Below, one piece after another: positions 51,137 to 61,577 of a stretch of DNA of 64,000 nucleotides. This DNA comes from Propioniciclava flava (GTDB lineage Bacteria > Actinomycetota > Actinomycetes > Propionibacteriales > Propionibacteriaceae): positions 1 through 64,000 of the forward strand of contig NZ_PPCV01000001.1 in assembly GCF_004126535.1 (NCBI RefSeq). Direction: 5' to 3'. The notes beneath the pieces were generated by a model. That model was not told where the DNA came from and searched no databases. It worked only from the letters and a program-made list of their open reading frames with translations. Every line of letters begins with the position of its first letter. Positions within the stretch are counted from its first letter, which is position 1. The position numbers were made by a program, and so were the translations under genes.

Positions 51137-53698
51137 GTGCGGCTACGGCGTCACCAACGCGAGGCGCTGGACGCCATCGCTGCCAGCGAGGATCAGCGTC
51201 ATTGGATCGTCCTGCCCCCGGGCGCCGGGAAGACGCTCGTGGGCGTCTCGGCGGCCCTGAGGTGGGGGAGACCCGTCGTCGTGTTCGGCCCCAACCTGGC
51301 CATCGTCGAGCAATGGCGTCAGGCGTGGGAAGACGTCGCCGGCGGGCCAACAAGCTCCGACCGGACGCTGCCGACCCGATTCACCGCCTTGACGTATCAG
51401 TCGTTGGCCGTGTTCGACGCAGAATCCGACGCCGTGCAGGGCACCGCGCGGCTGCACCCCAACGGCATCGCGCTGGTGGAGCGGCTCCGTGAGGCCGGCC
51501 CGATCACCCTGATCCTCGACGAGTGCCATCATCTGCTTCAAGTGTGGGGCGCCCTCCTCGACGACATCGTCTGCGGTTTGCCCGACGCACAGGTTCTCGC
51601 GCTGACCGCCACCCCACCCGCGCTGCTGACGCCGGTCCAGGCGCAGCGGGTCGGTCGGTTGTTTGGGTCCATCACCTATCAGGCGGGCATACCCGCGCTG
51701 GTCGCCGAGGGTGACCTGGCCCCCTTCGCCGAGTTGGCCTGGTTCACGACCCCGACAGCCCCGGAGTCCGCATGGCTGGACGCACGGGCGCTGCGCGCCA
51801 GCGAACTGGTCACCGAACTGCTGCGCACCGATGGCGCAGGCATTCCCCTCCTCACCTGGCTGGCGCTGCATGACGGGCGCGACCTGCCTCGCGAGACGGC
51901 GGATGCGGCGGTGCGGTTGGCGTTGGCCGGGCATCTCGATCTTCCCGAACACGCCCACGTGGCGGAGCGGCACCGGCGTCCGCCTACCCTGGAGGACTGG
52001 CTGCTCCTGGCCTCGGGTTGGCTCATGGCGTTGCGTGAAGGCACGGAGCCGGAGCGGGAACGCGCTCGTCGCCTGGGTGGCCTGCTGCCGGGTGTGGGGT
52101 TCCGGCTGACCCGCCACGGCATCGTCGCAGGTCAGCCGCTCGTTGACCGTGTGCTGTCCCGTAGTGCAGCGAAGACGCTGGCGGCGGCTGAGATCGTGGC
52201 CCAGACGCTGGCCGAGGATCCTGACGCTCGCCTCCTTGTCCTGACCGACCATGCGTCCGCGGCTGCCTTGCCCGCAGATGTGGACGGTGTCCTCGCCCCC
52301 GAATCCGGGTCGGTCCGCTGGCTGCTGGAGACATTCGTCGCCGACCCCAGGATCGCGGGGGCGCGACCGGTGGGCGTGACCGGGAGCAGCATCGGGGCGC
52401 AGGCAGAGGTTATGGCACACCTGTTGCCCGGGCTCACCGGAACGAGCGCAGGATCGGAGGTCGTGGTGATCGAGGGCACCTCCGCGGGCTGGCTCCGGGC
52501 GGCGACACGCGCACTGGAGTCCGGGTGGACCCGTGTCCTCATCGGGACTCGGGGCCTCCTGGGGGAGGGCTGGGATGCGCGATCGGTCACCGGCGTCATC
52601 GATCTGACATCGGCGACCACATCGACCGCGATCGTGCAGACCCGGGGGCGGTCCCTGCGCACGGATCCAGCACGCCCGGACAAGGTCGCCGTCAATTGGA
52701 CCGTTACCTGTGTGGCCTCCGAGCGTCCCCAAGGCGACGCGGACTATCGCAGGCTGGTACGCAAGCATGCGGGCTGGTTCTCGGTGGACGAGTACGGGGA
52801 CGTCGTGGAGGGCCCTGCCCACCTGGACTCGACGCTGGGCCCGGACCTGCCGCCACAATCCCTGCCGAACCTCAACGCGCGTGCCCTGTCGCGTTCAGCG
52901 GATGCCGAGGGGATCCGCGCGGCGTGGGCGCGAGTCTCGCCCGACCGGGTGAACGCGGTGGCCACCCTCAGGGTTTCTGGGCGGCGTGCGCCGCACCCGT
53001 TGCCCGTCCTCACGCCCGTGGGGACCCGCACGGTCCCCCTCAGCGTGCTCGTGGTGGGGGTCGTTGCTGCGGTGGTGGGTGGCCTGGCGGGCGGGTCGCT
53101 GTGGCCAGCGGCCCTCGTCGTGACGACGATCTGCGCGGTGCTCGCGGGGATACTGACGCGTCGACGGGCGGTCGCGATGCGCGCGAAGGCGGTGGCTGGA
53201 CCATCGCTGCGCGACTTCGGCGCGGCCGTTGCCGATGCGCTGCAGGAACGAGGTCTCTCGCCCCGTGGCGCCGAGGGGGTGACGGTGTCGGTGGCCGCCG
53301 ACGGTGAGACACGCATCCGCCTGGACGTGCCACCCGGCATCGACGATGACGCCGCAGCGTCGCAGGTCTTCGCTGAGGCCCTCGACGAGGTGTTGGGAGT
53401 CATCGAGCACCCTCGCTACCTCGTTTCACGGCCTGGCTGGGAGGATCGTGCGCCGCGATGGTACGAAAGCGGGTCGCCGCGGCCTGACACCGAGATCTGG
53501 CATCAGGTTCCCGCCGTGCTGGGGGTGAACAGGGCCTGTGTGGACGCGTTTCTCGCGTCCTGGCATCGCCATGTGGGGCCCGGCGAGGTGCTGTTCACGG
53601 GATCGCCCGAGGGAGCGGGAGCGCTGCGTGCACTGCGCTGGTCTTCGCCGTTCGGCGACGCCGCAGGTCTGACGGTGCGACACCGGACGCAGTGGTGA
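51137..53698 (+). CDS. Superfamily 2 DEAD/DEAH-box helicase with a membrane hairpin
   Basis: An 853-residue protein. The N-terminal RecA domain has Walker A PPGAGKT (about residue 28) and the DECH box (LDECHHLL, about 125). The second domain contains GEGWDARSVTGVIDL and QTRGRSLRTDP (motif VI). Two hydrophobic helices (about residues 633-672) follow, then a soluble C-terminal part of about 180 residues that I do not recognise. A helicase anchored in the membrane is unusual. It follows the DUF6912 gene by 3 nt and precedes ku. Confidence 0.8.
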   Translation: MRLRRHQREALDAIAASEDQRHWIVLPPGAGKTLVGVSAALRWGRPVVVFGPNLAIVEQWRQAWEDVAGGPTSSDRTLPTRFTALTYQSLAVFDAESDAVQGTARLHPNGIALVERLREAGPITLILDECHHLLQVWGALLDDIVCGLPDAQVLALTATPPALLTPVQAQRVGRLFGSITYQAGIPALVAEGDLAPFAELAWFTTPTAPESAWLDARALRASELVTELLRTDGAGIPLLTWLALHDGRDLPRETADAAVRLALAGHLDLPEHAHVAERHRRPPTLEDWLLLASGWLMALREGTEPERERARRLGGLLPGVGFRLTRHGIVAGQPLVDRVLSRSAAKTLAAAEIVAQTLAEDPDARLLVLTDHASAAALPADVDGVLAPESGSVRWLLETFVADPRIAGARPVGVTGSSIGAQAEVMAHLLPGLTGTSAGSEVVVIEGTSAGWLRAATRALESGWTRVLIGTRGLLGEGWDARSVTGVIDLTSATTSTAIVQTRGRSLRTDPARPDKVAVNWTVTCVASERPQGDADYRRLVRKHAGWFSVDEYGDVVEGPAHLDSTLGPDLPPQSLPNLNARALSRSADAEGIRAAWARVSPDRVNAVATLRVSGRRAPHPLPVLTPVGTRTVPLSVLVVGVVAAVVGGLAGGSLWPAALVVTTICAVLAGILTRRRAVAMRAKAVAGPSLRDFGAAVADALQERGLSPRGAEGVTVSVAADGETRIRLDVPPGIDDDAAASQVFAEALDEVLGVIEHPRYLVSRPGWEDRAPRWYESGSPRPDTEIWHQVPAVLGVNRACVDAFLASWHRHVGPGEVLFTGSPEGAGALRALRWSSPFGDAAGLTVRHRTQW

Positions 53699-53746: not shown

Positions 53747-54550
53747 ATGCCCCGAAGCACGTGGAAAGGCGCCGTATCGTTTGGCCTGGTCACTATCCCG
53801 GTCACGTTGTATGCGGCAACCGAGGAGAAGGACATCTCGTTTCGCCAGGTGCACCCAGCCGACGGCGGGCGCATCAAGTACAAGCGGGTCTGCGAGGTGT
53901 GCGGCCAAGAGATCCCCTTCGCCGAGATCGGCAAGGGCTATGAAACCGCCGATGGGCGCATGGTGATCTTGGAGGCGTCCGACTTCAACGAGCTGCCGTT
54001 GCCCACAGCCAAGCAAGTGGAGATCGTGCAATTCGTCGACGCCGACGAGATCGACCCGGCGGCCTACGACAAGGCGTACTTCCTCAAAGCCGACGGCCCC
54101 GGCGCGAAGCCCTACGTCTTGCTGCGCGAGGGGCTGGCCCGCTCACACAAGGCGGCCGTGGTGAAGGTGGCGCTGCGGTCGCGTGAGTCGCTGGCGCTCA
54201 TCCGAGCGCACGGCGATCTGCTCTTGCTGCAGACACTGCTGTGGCCAGATGAACTACGTGATGGTCAGTTCGCGGCGCCCCGCGAGGATGTCGCCGCCAG
54301 CCCGGCCGAAGTCGACATGGCCAGCATGTTCATCGACCAACTCACGGCGCCCTACGATCCCAGCCAGTTCACCGACTCTTATCGTGACGCGCTGGAGCAG
54401 GTGGTGGCGGCCAAGCTCGGGGACACTCCTGTGCCCGAACCGACCACCACGAGTGAGGGCACCGGTGAGGTGGTGGACCTCGTGGCCGCCCTCAAGGCAT
54501 CGGTGGAGGCCGCGAAGAAGAGGCGGGAGGCTGCCGCGAAGGCAGGCTGA
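53747..54550 (+). CDS. ku: Ku DNA end-binding protein (NHEJ)
   Basis: A 267-residue bacterial Ku. The typical start is RSTWKGAVSFGLVTIPVTLY; EVCGQEIPFAEIGKGYE and EASDFNELPLPTAKQVEIVQFV follow, and the C-terminal tail is short and basic (KKRREAAAKAG). Ku holds double-strand ends for LigD in non-homologous end joining. No ligD is present in the window, so the ligase must be elsewhere if the pathway works. The next gene (LacI) starts 2 nt later but is unrelated. Confidence 0.94.
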   Translation: MPRSTWKGAVSFGLVTIPVTLYAATEEKDISFRQVHPADGGRIKYKRVCEVCGQEIPFAEIGKGYETADGRMVILEASDFNELPLPTAKQVEIVQFVDADEIDPAAYDKAYFLKADGPGAKPYVLLREGLARSHKAAVVKVALRSRESLALIRAHGDLLLLQTLLWPDELRDGQFAAPREDVAASPAEVDMASMFIDQLTAPYDPSQFTDSYRDALEQVVAAKLGDTPVPEPTTTSEGTGEVVDLVAALKASVEAAKKRREAAAKAG

Positions 54551-54552
54551 GG

Positions 54553-55638
54553 GTGAACATTCAGGAACCAGGCGGGGCAGGGGCGACCCGACGTGTCCGG
54601 CTCGCGGACGTGGCGGCTGCGGCGGGGGTGTCGACGTCAGCGGCGTCCTTCGTGCTCAATGGACGGACCGACCAGCGGATCCCCGAGGAGACCAAGGAAC
54701 GCGTCCGGCGGGCTGCAGAGGAACTGGGCTATCGTCCCAACGCGACCGCCCGGACCTTGCGGACGGGGACCTCGGGCGCGTACGCCTTCGTCTCGGACTT
54801 CATCTCCAGCACGTCGGTCGCCAACGCCATGGTCCGCGGCGCGCTACGCGAACTGGACGCGCATGGCGCGCTCATGTTCGCTGTCGAAACGCAGGGCAAT
54901 GCAGACATGGAGCGTCGGCTGATCGAGCAACTGGTGGATCGTCACATCGACGGCGTGATCTATGCGTCCATGTTCACCCGCCATGTGGCGATTCCGGAGT
55001 TGCCTGCCGGAGTACGGCTGGTGTTGTTGAACTGCCTTCCCCCTGCCGGGGTAGCAGATCGGGGCGTGACGGCTGTCGTCCCGGACGAACTGGGGGCGGG
55101 GCGGGCCGCAGCGCAGGTGCTGCTGACGGCTGGGCATCGTGATCGCATCGCCTTTTTGGGTAGTTTCCCGGACGGGATGAGCGGCGGGCAGGAATGGGGA
55201 GGCCTGCATCCTCTGGCGTTGGACTTGCGCGTTCAGGGGATCACCGCGCGACTGGCCGAGAGCGGGCTCGCCCTCGCCGAGTCGATTCCCGTCACGGGTT
55301 GGGACATCGCCGATGGGCAAGCCGCAGCCGAAACGCTCGTGGGTGCAGCGCTGCCGTCAGCGATCATCTGTGCCAATGACCGGCTGGCCCTGGGTGTGAT
55401 GCGGGCTCTGCGCCGCTACGGGGTGCGCGTTCCGGAGGATCTCTCCTTGGTGTCGTTCGATGGGAGCCAACTGGCCGACATCACCGATCCGCCTCTGGCC
55501 TCGCTGGCGTTGCCCCTGGAGGGCATGGGCCGACACGCCGCCCTACGAGTGTTGGAGGATGCACCTTCACCGACGGTTGAACTGTTGCCCATGCCGTTGG
55601 GGCGGACGGGCACCATCGCGCCGCCGCCGCTTCCCTAA
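54553..55638 (+). CDS. LacI-family transcriptional regulator
   Basis: A 361-residue regulator. The N-terminal HTH (RLADVAAAAGVSTSAASFVLNG) with hinge helix (NATARTLRTG) is followed by a periplasmic-binding-protein-like sugar domain (VNFMV-type SLVSFDGSQLADITDPPLASL at the end). A LacI-type palindrome with central CG lies 45 nt after its stop, in front of the downstream sugar operon, so it probably represses that operon. The ligand is not evident; a glucoside or sucrose derivative is suggested by the GH13 gene. Confidence 0.9.
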   Translation: MNIQEPGGAGATRRVRLADVAAAAGVSTSAASFVLNGRTDQRIPEETKERVRRAAEELGYRPNATARTLRTGTSGAYAFVSDFISSTSVANAMVRGALRELDAHGALMFAVETQGNADMERRLIEQLVDRHIDGVIYASMFTRHVAIPELPAGVRLVLLNCLPPAGVADRGVTAVVPDELGAGRAAAQVLLTAGHRDRIAFLGSFPDGMSGGQEWGGLHPLALDLRVQGITARLAESGLALAESIPVTGWDIADGQAAAETLVGAALPSAIICANDRLALGVMRALRRYGVRVPEDLSLVSFDGSQLADITDPPLASLALPLEGMGRHAALRVLEDAPSPTVELLPMPLGRTGTIAPPPLP

Positions 55639-55683
55639 CGACGCCGCCTAGTTGCGACCCCCCTTCCCGGGAGATACCATCGT

Positions 55684-55705
55684 CCTGCTATAACGATTTA
55701 GCAGG
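55684..55705. promoter_or_regulatory. LacI-family operator
   Basis: CCTGCTA and TAGCAGG are exact reverse complements, 8 nt apart, with CG at the exact centre (55694-55695), the layout bound by LacI-family proteins. It overlaps a possible -10 (TATAAC) and lies 34 nt before the first gene of the sugar operon. Confidence 0.8.
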
Positions 55706-55739
55706 CGCAGTGGGGCGCCGATGAGGAGAGAAGCCAACG

Positions 55740-56738
55740 ATGGTGGAACAGCGCATCACAGCGGGCGAGGGGCCTGAAGTGCCCCTGGGCGGACCAGTGC
55801 TGCTGGCGCCGTTCCTGCGTGCGCGCCTGGGCCTGGGGCAACCTCACCTCCCCGAGACCTTCCTGCGTTCACAGCAGGGGTGGCGTCCGCCCCAGGATGT
55901 CGACACGGTGCATCTCCACCTCCCCGACACGACAACCGGAACCGTCCCGGTGCGTCTCTACCGGCCTCGCGGAATCACGGGAGGCCTTCCGGGACTCGTG
56001 TGGTTCCACGGTGGTGGCTTCACCCACGGCTCCCTCGACTGGGGCGAGGCACATGTGCTCGCGTTGGAGTTGGCCTCGCACGCGCAAATCATCGTCGCGA
56101 GCGTCGGCTACGCGACCAGTTCCTACCCGGACGCCCTACGAGACGCCCGGCGCGCCTGGGCCTGGCTGGCGAGCGCGGGGGAGTCGCTGGGCATGGCCGG
56201 TGTCCCTGCAGCCGGGGGCGCGAGCGCGGGCGCCAGCCTGGCCCTGAGCGCGTCGGTGGCGGAGCGAACACCGGGCACACCCGCGGCAACAGCTTTCCTA
56301 GGGCTCTACGGGCTCTATCACGCAAGCATCTCTGCCCCGGACCCCACGACCGCCCGTGCCCTAGCGGATCTGCCCGCTGGCGTCTGATTCGACACCGCAG
56401 CCTATGCGCGCTGGGTGCAGACGGTGCGCGAGGACCTAGACGACCCGAACGCCCTGGATCCGGGTGCCCTTCCCCTGATCGAGATGCCGCCCACCGCACT
56501 AGTGGAGTGTCAGTACGACGACCTGCGGGCCTCCACCAGCACCCTCGCCCGCACCCTGCGCGAGTCCGGGGTCATCGTCCGCGAACTGTGCGTCGACGGA
56601 GTCGTGCACGGGCATCTCAACTGGCTACCCGGGGCTGACTTGCCCCAGGTCGAGACCACCCTCACCTTCCTCGAGGACGCCTTGCGCGACCTCCCGCAAC
56701 CCAACACCGAGGCCCCAGTGGCCGTTACGAAGGAGTAA
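55740..56738 (+). pseudogene. Alpha/beta hydrolase (HSL-type esterase) with internal stop
   Basis: The frame contains the oxyanion motif WFHGGGFTHG, the nucleophile elbow GGASAGASLAL and a later catalytic His region VVHGHLNW. A TGA at 56385-56387 stops translation after 215 residues. The same frame then continues with family sequence (FDTAAYARW to VETTLTFLEDAL). CGA to TGA (Arg to stop) is the simplest change. The truncated product lacks the catalytic Asp/His half and should be inactive. First gene after the LacI operator. Confidence 0.85.
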
Positions 56739-56741
56739 CCC

Positions 56742-57587
56742 ATGTCAGTCGTGTCCACCGCCAAGACGCCTCACCCGTGGTGGGTGGCGTTCGTCTGTGG
56801 CATGGCGACGTTCGTGGACGCCGCCACCACCGGTATCGGCATCGCGCTGGTGCTGTTCCAGTCGATGGAACCGGGCCAGCCCGGGCTGAGCGCCAACGAG
56901 GTCGGATTCCTCACCGCAGCCCTGGCGCTGGGCGTGGCCGTCGGCTCGTTGCTCGGCGGACGACTGGGTGACCGGTTCGGACGCCGCACCGTGTTCCTGG
57001 TGACGATGGTCCTCATCGTGCTGGGATCCATCGCCCCGTTCCTCTCGTTGAACTTCGGGATCATGTTCCTCGGAATCGCGGTCATCGGCCTCGGCGTGGG
57101 GGCGGACCTTCCCGTCGCCTTGGCCAGCATCTCCGAGGCAGCGACTGACGACAACCGCGGCAAACTGATCGTGTTCTCCAACCTCATCCCCGTGTTGTTC
57201 GGATTCACCTTCGCGACGGTGCTGTCCTCGGTGCTGCTGGCCACCGTCGCCGGGGCTTTCTGCTTCGAGACCATCATGAAGGTGTGGACGCAGGAATCCT
57301 TCCCGACCCTGATGCGCGGCACCGCTCAGGGGTTCATCTATGGCATCTCGCGGTTCGCGGCGGCCGGGCTCAACGCGGTGACGCCGATGCTGCTGGCCTT
57401 CAACGCTAAGGGCCTCTACCTCGGCATCGCCGTCCTTGCTGCGGCCGGGTTTGCGATCGGCTGGGTCGGCTTCCGCAAGGGCGCTGCCAACCAGTTCGAC
57501 TCGGAGGCGACAATGGAGCCGCTCGGTGCCTCTCCGGCCCGACTCGTGACCGGCACTCAGGGTGCCATGGAGGAGGGACAGCGATGA
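56742..57587 (+). pseudogene. MFS sugar transporter with internal deletion
   Basis: A 281-residue open frame, while family members have about 420-470. The N-terminal half is normal (GGRLGDRFGRRTVF loop 2-3 motif, helices 1-4 and DLPVALASISEAATDDNRGK). After VFSNLIPVLF the sequence jumps to a late helix (TFATVLSSVLLATVAGAF) and the C-terminal motif TQESFPTLMRGTAQG. Roughly 150 residues, covering several central helices, appear to be lost in frame. Transport function is doubtful. It is between two esterase genes, overlapping the next by 4 nt. Confidence 0.7.
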
Positions 57588-58378
57588 TTGTTCGCCCGTT
57601 CGAGACCACCGTCGAGGATCTGGTACTTCGCGGCACATTGTCCCTGCCCGATGCTGTGTCGGGGCCCGCCCCCGCCGTGGTGCTCCTGCACGGCTTCGGA
57701 GGGAACCGGATCGAGGGGGCTCGGTTCTTTGTGGATCTTGCCCAAGCACTGACGGATCACGGCGTCGTCGTGCTCGCCTTCGACCGCGCCGGGCATGGCG
57801 AGAGTGGCGGAAGCTTCTTCGACACCAGCGTGACCCAGGATGTCCGCCACACCCACCTGGTCCTCGATGCGTTCGCGGCCCTCCCCGAGGTGGACGCCGA
57901 CGATCTGCACTTGGTCGGTCTGAGCCTGGGGGCTGTCGAGGCTATCGCTGTGGCGGCGTCGAGCCCCCGCACACTGCGGTCGGTGACCATGCTGTCCACC
58001 GCAGCCATCTTCGTGGACGAGATCGGCTCAGGTTTCATCCAGGGGCGCTCCCTGGCCAGCATCGATACGGTCGGGTACTTCGACTTCCTCGGTCAGAAGA
58101 TGGGGCCGGCGATGGTGGAGGACGCCCGGCACTTTGATCCGTACGCTGCGGCGGCTGCCTATCGCGGCCCGACGCTGCTGCTGCACGGGACCAACGATTT
58201 CGTCCCCGTCCGCTACGCCGAGCGCTACCTGGAGGTGCTGGAGCAGGCCACCCTCGACGTCGTGTCGGATGCCGACCATGGCTGGATGACGGTCCCGCAC
58301 CGCGAACTCGTGGCCCGCCGGGTCGTCGCGCAGGTCCTGGCCCACGCACGACACGGACACGGGGAGGCTCACGCATGA
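57584..58378 (+). CDS. Alpha/beta hydrolase (esterase-like)
   Basis: A 264-residue cytoplasmic hydrolase. The oxyanion loop is HGFGGNR, the nucleophile Ser is in LVGLSLGAV, the acid is probably in HGTNDFVP and the His in DADHGWM. The layout resembles acyl esterases of the BAAT/cinnamoyl type. It overlaps the MFS gene and the SGNH gene by 4 nt each, so it is part of the sugar operon and may remove acyl groups from the sugar substrate (inference). Confidence 0.85.
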   Translation: MIVRPFETTVEDLVLRGTLSLPDAVSGPAPAVVLLHGFGGNRIEGARFFVDLAQALTDHGVVVLAFDRAGHGESGGSFFDTSVTQDVRHTHLVLDAFAALPEVDADDLHLVGLSLGAVEAIAVAASSPRTLRSVTMLSTAAIFVDEIGSGFIQGRSLASIDTVGYFDFLGQKMGPAMVEDARHFDPYAAAAAYRGPTLLLHGTNDFVPVRYAERYLEVLEQATLDVVSDADHGWMTVPHRELVARRVVAQVLAHARHGHGEAHA

Positions 58379-59598
58379 CGAGCATCGGTGAGGTCATCTC
58401 CCTGCCCGACGGCACGAGTGTGCGGTTGAGTGGCCACCTCGACCTGCTCCGCAACGACGGGGGCGTGCGGCCCGTACGGTTGCCGGTGGCGTCCTGGGAC
58501 CGGTTCCCCCCGGCTGCGGAGATCATGCGCACCGTGGCGAGTCAGGCGTCCGGGGTCCGCCTCAGCGTCCGCGCGGACGCCCCGCGCCTGACCTTGGCCG
58601 TGCGGTGTACGCGTGTCGACTTCAGCGACGATGCTGGTCAGCCCATCGAGGGGCCGGTCAACGACGTCGTCGCGACCATCGAAGGCCTCCCCGTGGCCCG
58701 GGTGCGAGCCAGCGTCGACCAGGTGGAGGAGGTGGGTCCCGGCGGGCGTGTTGCCGTCGTGCGTCGCCATCGCCTCTCCTCGGCTCTGACGCTGGACGGG
58801 CTTGGTGAGGGCGTCAAGGACGTCACGATCTGGCTTCCGCAAGGCATGGAGGTGGACCTGCTGGGGTTGCAAGGGGACGGCTCGATCGTGCCCGCCCCCG
58901 CGTCAGGACGCCCGGTGTGGCTCCACCACGGCAGTTCGATCAGCCATTGCGCCAGCCCGGTGGACCCGCTGTCGTCGTGGCCGGTTGTGGCGGCTCAGGC
59001 GGCCCGACACGAGGTCATCAACCTCGGCTTCTCCGGGCAGGCGATGATCGACCCCTTCACGGCAGATGCCATCGCCGCGACTCCCGCCGATGTCATCTCG
59101 TTGTCGTTTGGCGTCAACATCGTCGGGGCGCGGAGCATGGACGAACGCACGTTCGTGCCAGCCGTGCACGGCTTCCTCGACGCGGTACGCCGGGGGCATC
59201 CCCACACCCCGATCGTGCTGCTCTCCGCGATCCTGTGGCCCGGCAGCGAGGACGTACCTGGGCCGTCCCGCGTCGACTTCGCCGAGGATGGCTCCTTGAG
59301 CGTACGCACCTGCGGGAACGTGGACGACATCGCCACCGGCGCGCTGACGCTGGCCACCTCACGCGACCACCTGCAGCACGTGGTGCGGGTGCGGGCGGCA
59401 GCGGGTGAGCCCATCTCCTATCTCGATGGACGCAGCCTGTACGGCCCCGACGATGCCGTGAACGCCCCGCTGCCCGACGGCCTGCATCCTGACGGGCCCA
59501 TCTACCAGAGGATGGGCGCTAGATTCGCCTCGATGGTGTTCGCTCCCGGTGGGGCGTTCGCCAGTGACGCGCCCGTCTCACCAGCTCAGGAGTCCTGA
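58375..59598 (+). CDS. SGNH/GDSL-family esterase
   Basis: A 407-residue hydrolase with two parts. The N-terminal 180 residues form a beta-rich carbohydrate-esterase-like domain. The SGNH domain has block I HHGSSISHC (nucleophile Ser, about residue 187), the Gly block NLGFSG, block III SFGVNIVG (Asn) and the Asp/His pair LPDGLHPDG near the end. No signal peptide is seen. Typical of sugar acetyl or acyl esterases. The stop overlaps the next ATG (TGATG-type 1-nt overlap). Confidence 0.88.
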   Translation: MTSIGEVISLPDGTSVRLSGHLDLLRNDGGVRPVRLPVASWDRFPPAAEIMRTVASQASGVRLSVRADAPRLTLAVRCTRVDFSDDAGQPIEGPVNDVVATIEGLPVARVRASVDQVEEVGPGGRVAVVRRHRLSSALTLDGLGEGVKDVTIWLPQGMEVDLLGLQGDGSIVPAPASGRPVWLHHGSSISHCASPVDPLSSWPVVAAQAARHEVINLGFSGQAMIDPFTADAIAATPADVISLSFGVNIVGARSMDERTFVPAVHGFLDAVRRGHPHTPIVLLSAILWPGSEDVPGPSRVDFAEDGSLSVRTCGNVDDIATGALTLATSRDHLQHVVRVRAAAGEPISYLDGRSLYGPDDAVNAPLPDGLHPDGPIYQRMGARFASMVFAPGGAFASDAPVSPAQES

Positions 59599-61082
59599 TG
59601 ACCTCGACCACGCCACGCACGGGGCCCCAGTTGATCGCCTACGCCGACCGGTTGGGCGGCAGCGTCGCGCAGGTGGCCGCACTCCTGAGGGGCCCCCTGG
59701 CGGGCGCCTTCGACGGAGTTCACCTGCTGCCGTTCTTTACCCCGTTCGACGGCGCCGACGCGGGTTTTGATCCCGTCGATCACACCCAGGTCGATCCGCG
59801 GCTGGGGACGTGGACCGACGTGGCCGATCTGGCCAGCGACCACGCGGTCATGGCGGACATGATCGTCAACCATGTCTCCGCCGACAGCCCGCTGTTTCGT
59901 GACGTCGTCGCTCGCGGTGACGCGTCCGAGCATGCAGGCCTGTTCTTGACCCTCGATCGCGTGTTTCCCGACGGGGTGAGCGAGGAGGATCTGTGTCGGA
60001 TCTACCGCCCACGGCCGGGGCTTCCCCTGACCCCCATGACGCTGGGGGACCGCAAGCGGCTGGTCTGGACGACGTTCACGCCGCAGCAGATCGACATCGA
60101 CGTGGACTCCCCTGCGGGGCAGGCCTACCTGGATTCGGTCCTGGACGCGCTCACCGGGGCCGGGGTCTCGCTGATCCGGTTGGACGCGGTCGGTTACGGG
60201 GTCAAGACGGCGGGCACATCGTGCTTCATGACGCCGGACACCTACGCGTTCATCGACGCGCTGACTGCTGCGGCACAGGCGCGCGGGGCACGGGTCCTGG
60301 TCGAAATCCACTCCCACTTCCATCGGCAGATCGATATCGCCTCGCGTGTGGACATGGTTTACGACTTCGCGCTGCCCCCGCTGGTGCTCCACACGCTGTA
60401 CACCGGGGACACGGCGGCGTTGCGTCGCTGGTTGGAGATCCGGCCGCGTAACGCGGTGACCGTCCTGGACACCCACGACGGCATCGGTGTGGTCGACGTG
60501 GGGCCCGACCAGATTGAGCCTGGTCGCGAGGGGCTGCTGTCCCGGGAGGCGGTGGATGCGCTGGTCGAACGGATCCATACCGAGTCGGCGGGGCAGTCGC
60601 GCCAGGCGACGGGCTGGGCCGCGTCCAACGTGGACGTCTACCAGGTCAACTGCACCTTCTTCGACGCCCTGGGCCGCGACCGGGCACGGTACCTGACGGC
60701 CCGCGCCCTCCAGTTGTTCGTCCCGGGTATCCCGCAGATCTACTACGTGGGTTTGCTCGCGGGGACCAACGACATGGACCTGCTGGCCCGCACCGGTGTG
60801 GGGCGCGATATCAACCGCCACTACTACACCGACACCGAGGTCGATGAGGCCTTGGCTGACCCGCTCACGGCGACCCTGGTCGATCTGCTCCGATTGCGAC
60901 GTGAGCATCCCGCTTTCAGCGGCGATTTCACCGTGTCCGGTGAGGGGCCCGACTTGGTGATGACCTGGCGTTTGGGTGAGCGCTGGGCGCAGTTGGGGGT
61001 GGACGCCGCGCACGGCACCAGCGTCGTGGAATGGAATCAAGAAGACGGCTCCGTGAAGACCTGTGCGGTGACGCGGGGCTGA
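59598..61082 (+). CDS. Sucrose-phosphorylase-type GH13 enzyme (GH13_18)
   Basis: A 494-residue enzyme. The nucleophile Asp is in IRLDAVGYG (about residue 196), the acid/base Glu in VEIHSHFH (about 237) and the third Asp in VLDTHDGIGVVD (about 294), close to the positions in Bifidobacterium sucrose phosphorylase. Other typical parts are YADRLGG near the start and PGIPQIYYVGLLAG. It converts sucrose or a related glucoside with phosphate to glucose 1-phosphate. Sucrose-6'-phosphate or glucosylglycerate phosphorylase is possible. It ends the operon. Confidence 0.88.
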   Translation: MTSTTPRTGPQLIAYADRLGGSVAQVAALLRGPLAGAFDGVHLLPFFTPFDGADAGFDPVDHTQVDPRLGTWTDVADLASDHAVMADMIVNHVSADSPLFRDVVARGDASEHAGLFLTLDRVFPDGVSEEDLCRIYRPRPGLPLTPMTLGDRKRLVWTTFTPQQIDIDVDSPAGQAYLDSVLDALTGAGVSLIRLDAVGYGVKTAGTSCFMTPDTYAFIDALTAAAQARGARVLVEIHSHFHRQIDIASRVDMVYDFALPPLVLHTLYTGDTAALRRWLEIRPRNAVTVLDTHDGIGVVDVGPDQIEPGREGLLSREAVDALVERIHTESAGQSRQATGWAASNVDVYQVNCTFFDALGRDRARYLTARALQLFVPGIPQIYYVGLLAGTNDMDLLARTGVGRDINRHYYTDTEVDEALADPLTATLVDLLRLRREHPAFSGDFTVSGEGPDLVMTWRLGERWAQLGVDAAHGTSVVEWNQEDGSVKTCAVTRG

Positions 61083-61100: not shown

Positions 61101-61577
61101 TCAGGGATGCGTGGCGAGCCACGCGTCGCCCACGCGTCCCTGAGCCTCGAATGCGTCGGTGATCAGGGGCGCTGCCATCGTCTCCAGGCGCGGGCCCAGC
61201 AACGGAACCCGCACGACCAGGTCGGCCTCATACGTCAGCGTGCTGCCGCCCTGAGCGGGGGACAGCACGGCCGTGCCGGTCAGTGACACCGGAGCGCCGC
61301 CCACGGTCAACGTGACCGCTCCCGTCCGGGCGCCCAACGCGTCCGGTTCGCCCCAGACGGTCTCCTGCGTGATGTTCAACTGCGGTCCCAGGAAGCTGCG
61401 CAATGGGGCGGGCGTCTCGATGGCGCCCTCCACCGCCGTCCGGGTCGCGCTGGCCGCGACGCGGGAGGTGGGCGAGCCGAGTTCGGCCGCGGCGTGGGCG
61501 AGGAACTCCTCGTCAGTGACCATCGCGAAGACACGCTCGGGGGACGCCGGGAAGTCGAGCCGGGTGATCAGATGCAT
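61101..61577 (-). CDS. DUF2505 family protein (START/SRPBCC-like)
   Basis: A 158-residue protein beginning HLITRLDFPASPERVFAMVTDEEFL, given here by its end PERVFAMVTDEEFL. It continues with beta strands and a C-terminal helix (APLITDAFEAQGRVGDAWLA). This is the DUF2505 pattern, a helix-grip fold that may bind lipids. It is widespread in actinobacteria and of unknown function. Convergent with the sugar operon and divergent from gdh. Confidence 0.85.
   Translation of the reverse strand: MHLITRLDFPASPERVFAMVTDEEFLAHAAAELGSPTSRVAASATRTAVEGAIETPAPLRSFLGPQLNITQETVWGEPDALGARTGAVTLTVGGAPVSLTGTAVLSPAQGGSTLTYEADLVVRVPLLGPRLETMAAPLITDAFEAQGRVGDAWLATHP

Follow-up and report, generated by a model that had tools for sequence, protein, structure and literature searches.

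Gene content and organisation of the operon

Positions 54553–61082 of the 64,000-nucleotide stretch of Propioniciclava flava DNA analysed here (NCBI RefSeq assembly GCF_004126535.1, contig NZ_PPCV01000001.1, positions 1 to 64,000; hereafter the window) hold a block of genes, all on the + strand, that starts with a lacI repressor gene, continues with a 101-base gap containing an inverted repeat, and ends with five enzyme and transporter genes. On balance, we read this block as a LacI-controlled, laterally acquired operon for the use of acylated sucrose as food, with acetylated hydroxycinnamoyl sucrose as the most likely class of substrate, which is now decaying. The tightly packed genes following the inverted repeat encode, in this order, an HSL-type esterase, a transporter of the major facilitator superfamily (MFS), an alpha/beta hydrolase (ABH), an SGNH hydrolase and a GH13 enzyme, which were assigned by Pfam and NCBIfam to Abhydrolase_3 (split), MFS, Abhydrolase_6, GDSL and GH13, respectively, with the first gene of the block assigned to LacI. 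The HSL gene ends at 56738 and the MFS gene starts at 56742, leaving a gap of 3 bases, while 4-base overlaps are present at the MFS/ABH and ABH/SGNH junctions, and a 1-base overlap at the SGNH/GH13 junction. An initial annotation of this DNA had described the LacI regulator, operator, gene order, strand, extent and close packing, all of which were found again, and had counted three different esterase-like genes, which Pfam bore out as two alpha/beta hydrolases of different families and the SGNH protein. Neither its title nor its reasoning mentioned the two broken genes described below, the first of which is one of the three esterase genes.

The lacI gene (54553–55638, +) encodes a 361 aa protein from a GTG startcodon, with matches to Pfam LacI (1.8e-13) and Peripla_BP_3 (5e-26), and starts 2 bases past a Ku gene. 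A repeat search identified the inverted repeat CCTGCTA-N8-TAGCAGG at 55684–55705, between lacI and the structural genes, which resembles a LacI operator. Its 18-base core TGCTAWAWCGWTWTAGCA has a chance expectation of 0.01 occurrences in the window, and a search of the 3.0 Mb genome that tolerated up to 3 mismatches gave only this one site, which would presumably act as a local switch. A scan for promoters and terminators detected none, and Pfam gave no alpha-L-rhamnosidase match among the seven operon proteins and fragments scanned. Inspection by eye showed no obvious signal-peptide-like start in the four enzymes, which fits with uptake of an intact ester followed by intracellular cleavage.

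Lesions in the esterase and transporter genes

The HSL-type esterase gene (55740–56738, +) is a pseudogene with an in-frame TGA at 56385–56387, and matches Abhydrolase_3 with its 5′ half (4.3e-15) and, below the cut-off, with its 3′ half (2.8e-4). The HGGG motif, Ser162, Asp261 and His290 are all still encoded, with the TGA parting Ser162 from the Asp261 and His290 that follow it, so that no single open reading frame carries all three residues. The two halves align to one and the same intact esterase of the family Propionibacteriaceae, located in a transporter locus (L140) described below (37% over 114 aa and 40% over 47 aa, respectively), with DELRAS/DDLRAS and HGHLN stretches common to both proteins. 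The MFS gene (56742–57587, +) encodes only 281 aa, compared with 444 aa for its relative on plasmid pAO1, due to an in-frame internal deletion of approximately 163 codons; a stretch of 156–176 residues present in all 12 aligned homologues is absent at one place, and the gene is therefore not full-length. The frames downstream of both lesions remain open, as are those of the ABH, SGNH, GH13 and lacI genes. Judged on the assembled sequence, the occurrence of two separate lesions within the same operon is better explained by decay than by assembly error, and the P. flava operon appears to be decaying, with the MFS transporter and the HSL esterase having presumably lost their function.

The GH13 enzyme

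The last gene of the operon (59598–61082, +) has an open frame encoding 494 aa, and its product scored 403.1 bits with the TIGR03852 sucrose phosphorylase model (cut-off 334.4), consistent with the sucrose-phosphorylase-type enzyme proposed initially. The closest solved structure was Bifidobacterium sucrose phosphorylase 1r7a (E 1.6e-170, 571 bits), with 237/412 aligned residues identical, and Asp196, Glu236, Asp294, Arg139, Asp346 and Gln349 align with positions 192, 232, 290, 135, 342 and 345 of BaSP, respectively. We take the aligned Asp/Glu/Asp to be catalytic and the positions of Arg135, Asp342 and Gln345 to be sucrose-binding, and assume that the enzyme belongs to subfamily GH13_18. Based on the TIGR03852 score and the residues of its active site, the GH13 enzyme is predicted to be a sucrose phosphorylase. 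It is very unlikely that the phosphorylase has a different specificity and serves another acylated glycoside, such as an acylated glucosylglycerate or a phenolic glycoside. The solved GH13 matches do include two glucosylglycerol phosphorylases and a sucrose-6′-phosphate phosphorylase, and the wider family of the MFS transporter sits next to rhamnosidases (see below), but scores drop from 571 bits (1r7a) and 529 bits (sucrose phosphorylase 7znp) to 377, 370 and 329 bits for these other specificities, and the checked acceptor-site residues match those of 1r7a except for Leu341Val, Leu343Val and Val233Ile. Structure 7qqj, labelled as sucrose phosphorylase, reached only 346 bits, indicating that names do not strictly track scores, which leaves some room for the alternative.

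The ABH and SGNH hydrolases

The ABH gene (57584–58378, +) has an open frame encoding 264 aa with a Ser114-Asp205-His232 triad, and its nearest solved structure is the feruloyl esterase LbFAE of Lentilactobacillus buchneri (7z2u, E 1.1e-52, 37.5% identity, 90/240). The LbFAE publication names Ser114, His233, Asp206, Phe38, Phe143, Glu146 and Gln154 around ferulate, and proposes Glu44 for the sugar (PMC9776664). All eight residues are conserved in the alignment with ABH, including 4/4 identical contacts to the hydroxycinnamoyl ring (Phe38, Phe143, Glu146 and Gln154). The entrance collar of LbFAE, given there as Phe207, Phe38, Phe169, Tyr170 and Phe46, with Tyr169 and Tyr170 printed inconsistently (PMC9776664), is less well preserved in ABH, with 3/5 residues retained and 2/5 changed. 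The best reading of these residues is that ABH is predicted to take hydroxycinnamoyl groups.

The SGNH gene (58375–59598, +), which also has an open frame, encodes 407 aa and has a Pfam GDSL match, with a match to an SsfX3-type N-terminal domain below the cut-off. The five SGNH positions (Ser188, Gly221, Asn248 and the Asp-x-x-His of Asp368 and His371) are all invariant in a 25-row alignment. The AlphaFold model (pLDDT 86) matched SsfX3 (3skv, a structure titled as a salicylyl-acyltransferase; Z 38.5, 337 residues) and sugar esterases of family CE2 (Z 19–24, up to 24.3), covering both domains, among the structures listed in the comparison, beyond which other folds may match. The modelled fold that the protein has in common with SsfX3 and CE2 would tell nothing about its substrate.

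Transporter relatives and a related operon on plasmid pAO1

The transporter predicted initially was confirmed as MFS by Pfam, but its description as a sugar transporter was too specific: the best NCBIfam model was the aromatic-acid/H+ symporter subfamily, with a score far under its cut-off, and relatives are found in both rhamnoside- and sucrose-type loci. An ordinary sugar porter was set aside, as the nearest full-length relatives found were proteins of pAO1 and of rhamnosidase loci. A search of plasmids with the broken window protein gave eight records, seven of which were of the pAO1 type, including pAO1 itself, and five of these records are labelled Nicotiana tabacum. The window and pAO1 transporters are sisters (support 99/96) in a 13-row tree.

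On pAO1 of Paenarthrobacter nicotinovorans, record annotation and Pfam showed an operon (NZ_CP089294.1, 30192–35428; L110:8831-14067) with closely spaced structural genes on one strand, consisting of a divergent lacI gene and a whole MFS gene, followed by genes for an Abhydrolase_3 esterase, a GH32-type enzyme (GH32N 1.7e-16, above the cut-off, with GH68 below the cut-off) and a second alpha/beta hydrolase. This operon, 5.2 kb in length, is 99.5–100% identical in all seven plasmid records holding it, and a term search of three papers on nicotine-degrading Arthrobacter found no passage on it. The combination of a LacI regulator, a transporter of this sister pair, at least two esterases and a sucrose-splitting enzyme is, by Pfam and NCBIfam, also found in the window, where the MFS gene is broken. 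The two operons, which are on one transporter branch and each have a sucrose-type enzyme, from unrelated families, are thus best seen as an apparent independent parallel. Relatives of the pAO1 GH32-type enzyme were present in 30 plasmid records, and of the two inspected, one was located in a LacI-ABC sugar locus and one beside a gene with a serine-hydrolase domain, with annotation showing no pAO1-type transporter gene beside either.

The acylsucroses of tobacco are aliphatic, and since the pAO1 operon lacks a feruloyl-esterase-like gene, aliphatic tobacco acylsucroses are likelier to be its substrate. The same kind of pathway may have used aliphatic acylsucroses, the acylsugars of trichomes, in P. 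flava as well. The sister transporter is encoded in an operon on plasmids of which five are labelled Nicotiana tabacum, and the carboxylesterases that hydrolyse acylsugars in plants belong, in a broad sense, to one family with the HSL gene product. We nevertheless consider an aliphatic substrate unlikely for the window operon, as ABH retains Glu146 and Gln154, which bind the hydroxycinnamoyl ring in LbFAE (PMC9776664), and has no close relative in the pAO1 operon.

We also examined further loci of the MFS family, fetched from 10 of the 12 other Propionibacteriaceae genomes with MFS matches (one of two places in G101; G093 and G114 not fetched), which together with one from G409 gave 11 loci. 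A rhamnosidase gene adjoins the MFS gene in 7/11 (GH78 in five, GH106 in two) and sulfatase genes in 2/11, with neither among the neighbours scanned in the remaining two. Relatives of the HSL esterase were found in 3/11 loci, and none of the 11 contained an ABH-like or SGNH match. Five plasmid-borne MFS relatives were also inspected, with two located by a rhamnosidase gene, two by rhamnose-catabolism genes and one by neither. The transporter with the highest identity to the window MFS (52%) is encoded in a locus with the gene order LacI-MFS-GH78 rhamnosidase-HSL esterase-phenolic acid decarboxylase (L140:5670-11854, G149:C8), a gene content pointing to a candidate pathway for acylated phenolic rhamnosides.

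Conservation of the gene set in related genomes

The genome searches score only the best first-look candidates, and hence may miss relatives. Among 197 other Propionibacteriaceae genomes, 28 contained SGNH relatives (E ≤ 1e-3) of the SsfX3/CE2-like type, in varied contexts, and 18 contained GH13 relatives (E ≤ 1e-60). No genome had both, for which we calculated a chance expectation of about 2.6. The GH13 regions of these 18 genomes (4.9–18 kb) were all without a match to a window or pAO1 esterase (E ≤ 1e-3), with the pAO1 transporter weakly matched in two of them. Of the 24 SGNH regions compared, two contained an ABH match and none a match to GH13 or MFS. No esterase family was present among the 25 commonest Pfam families near GH13 (97 neighbours, 128 families) or near SGNH (111 neighbours, 117 families), in counts where families with up to two members may be hidden; the SGNH set excludes 7/118 neighbours omitted for length and three regions without a called SGNH gene. 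For ABH, three relatives were found at 32–36% identity (E ≤ 1e-18) in 194 other family genomes, not beside other operon genes, and a single one at E ≤ 1e-30 (42%, in an unrelated context) among 393 other genomes of the class.

Second copies of the gene set were sought with several queries, using SGNH and GH13 for the family (198 genomes each), the pAO1 MFS and ABH for the family as well (195 each), ABH and MFS for the class (394 each), MFS for the order (391) and SGNH for genome contigs. Plasmids were also searched, with the surroundings of 12 hits inspected, and no second copy was seen in any of these searches. The SGNH search of genome contigs gave four loci, from Herbiconiux and a Microbacteriaceae (37–38% identity), where no further window gene was matched, and SGNH relatives were present in 63 plasmid records, with unrelated contexts in the two inspected.

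Several of these results weigh against an acylated sucrose pathway. With two of its genes broken, the operon may not function in its present state. SGNH and GH13 relatives do not share a genome, the 18 GH13 regions are without matches to the window and pAO1 esterases, ABH has its single closer relative in an unrelated context, no second copy was found, and in two genomes with both GH13 and transporter relatives these are on different contigs or >100 kb apart. The parallel with pAO1 is limited as well, since sisterhood was seen in a tree of 13 rows only, ABH2, the second esterase of pAO1, is not a near relative of the window ABH (25%), and pAO1 would split the sugar with a different enzyme (GH32-type versus GH13). 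The rhamnosidase neighbours in 7/11 loci suggest that the MFS branch could carry substrates other than sucrose esters. Finally, the genome has no match to phenolic acid decarboxylase PF05870. The gene set as such thus appears not to be conserved in the family: intact versions in related genomes, which the initial annotation had proposed to look for, were not found, and the lack of linkage between esterases and GH13 in all 18 regions partly counts against its proposal. Its theme of import, deacylation and phosphorolysis does find support in the active-site residues and the pAO1 parallel.

The lack of conservation and the two broken genes would also be compatible with a plain sucrose phosphorylase gene behind general ester-detoxifying hydrolases, without a single pathway. 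This we regard as quite unlikely, as the genes have overlapping stop and start codons and share one operator and one regulator, and as an independent operon on pAO1 combines the sister transporter with esterases and a sucrose-type enzyme.

Genomic location and origin of the operon

The block is bordered on the left by the Ku gene (53747–54550, +), which is matched in 11/12 other genomes of the genus (one match partial), and on the right by a DUF2505 gene (61101–61577, −, Pfam), both of which are outside the proposed pathway. In all ten genus regions fetched, an aldehyde dehydrogenase gene (Pfam Aldedh, 71–78% identical to the copy in region L112) is located downstream of Ku, with other called genes intervening in one region, and the operon occupies this place in P. 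flava. A DUF2505 homologue adjoins the dehydrogenase gene in 8/10 regions, with an unmatched gene of similar size in the other two. The dehydrogenase had no match in the 64 kb window, the part of the genome covered by this search. None of the 12 other genus genomes had a match to GH13, and one contained distant SGNH relatives (33–42% identical). The simplest reading is that the operon was gained laterally and replaced the aldehyde dehydrogenase gene, with the base composition of the block not distinguished from that of its surroundings. Between SecA and Ku, a gene of 853 codons (51137–53698), helicase-like by eye, had no BLAST match among the called genes of the ten genus regions.

A proposed pathway for acylated sucrose

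We propose that the MFS transporter, when whole, would import a sucrose ester intact, after which three cytoplasmic esterases of different families would remove different acyl groups, with ABH acting on hydroxycinnamoyl groups, and acetyl or other groups left to the SGNH/CE2-like and HSL-type enzymes. The sucrose released in this way would then be cleaved by the sucrose phosphorylase to glucose-1-phosphate and fructose. Local decarboxylation of hydroxycinnamate was set aside given the lack of a PF05870 match in the genome, and the released acids may simply be exported. Acylsucroses are widespread as plant defence and medicinal compounds. Many plant sucrose esters combine acetyl with feruloyl, coumaroyl or sinapoyl groups, and natural hydroxycinnamoyl sucroses have been listed (PMC6273327). 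Degradation of acetylated hydroxycinnamoyl sucroses would need one esterase for the hydroxycinnamoyl groups, one or two for the acetyl groups and an enzyme that splits sucrose, which corresponds to the gene set of the P. flava operon.

More tentatively, and without calling it probable, we suggest that these operons represent an unrecognised kind of actinobacterial acylsucrose operon, based on one MFS branch and put together on separate occasions, with a sucrose phosphorylase in P. flava and a GH32-type enzyme on pAO1. If so, nicotine-degrading bacteria would carry acylsugar and nicotine catabolism on the same plasmid, suggesting that tobacco-associated plasmids combine the breakdown of both, and pAO1 would offer an intact copy that is open to testing in a laboratory strain. 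In agreement with the initial annotation, which knew of no named system of this composition, we found no description of such an operon, or of a bacterial operon importing or degrading acylsucroses, in the open-licence literature, which is weak evidence.

Comparison with known systems

At the level of single enzymes, ABH resembles LbFAE in its triad and in the residues listed above as surrounding ferulate, and differs from it at Phe46, Leu153, Tyr170 and Phe178 of LbFAE, which are Ala, Ile, Leu and Met in ABH; unlike LbFAE, ABH is encoded in a sucrose operon. The SGNH protein has the two-domain organisation of SsfX3 and CE2, a beta-sandwich with an SGNH fold, over most of its length, at 25% identity to SsfX3 and 17% to CE2.

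At the level of operons, the pAO1 system is similar in its LacI regulator, sister MFS transporter, Abhydrolase_3 esterase, second alpha/beta hydrolase and sucrose-type enzyme, but differs in having a GH32-type hydrolase instead of GH13, no SGNH gene, a second esterase not of the feruloyl esterase type, a divergent lacI and a whole transporter. The LacI/AraC-MFS-alpha-L-rhamnosidase loci encode a transporter of the same family and a glycosidase, and several are under LacI-type control, with GH78 or GH106 in place of the sucrose phosphorylase. The gtfA operons on Agrobacterium plasmids are sugar-uptake operons that end with a sucrose phosphorylase gene, the product of which is approximately 60% identical to the window enzyme, but differ by ABC import, a phosphodiesterase-family gene, an alpha-galactosidase and no annotated esterases. 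One region was inspected, on an Agrobacterium vitis plasmid (L160:385-10626), where the sucrose phosphorylase is encoded with an ABC transporter, a phosphodiesterase-family protein, an aldose epimerase and an alpha-galactosidase, beside traR. If the Agrobacterium gtfA operons are, as we assume, opine operons, a decorated sucrose-type opine would there be stripped first and then split.

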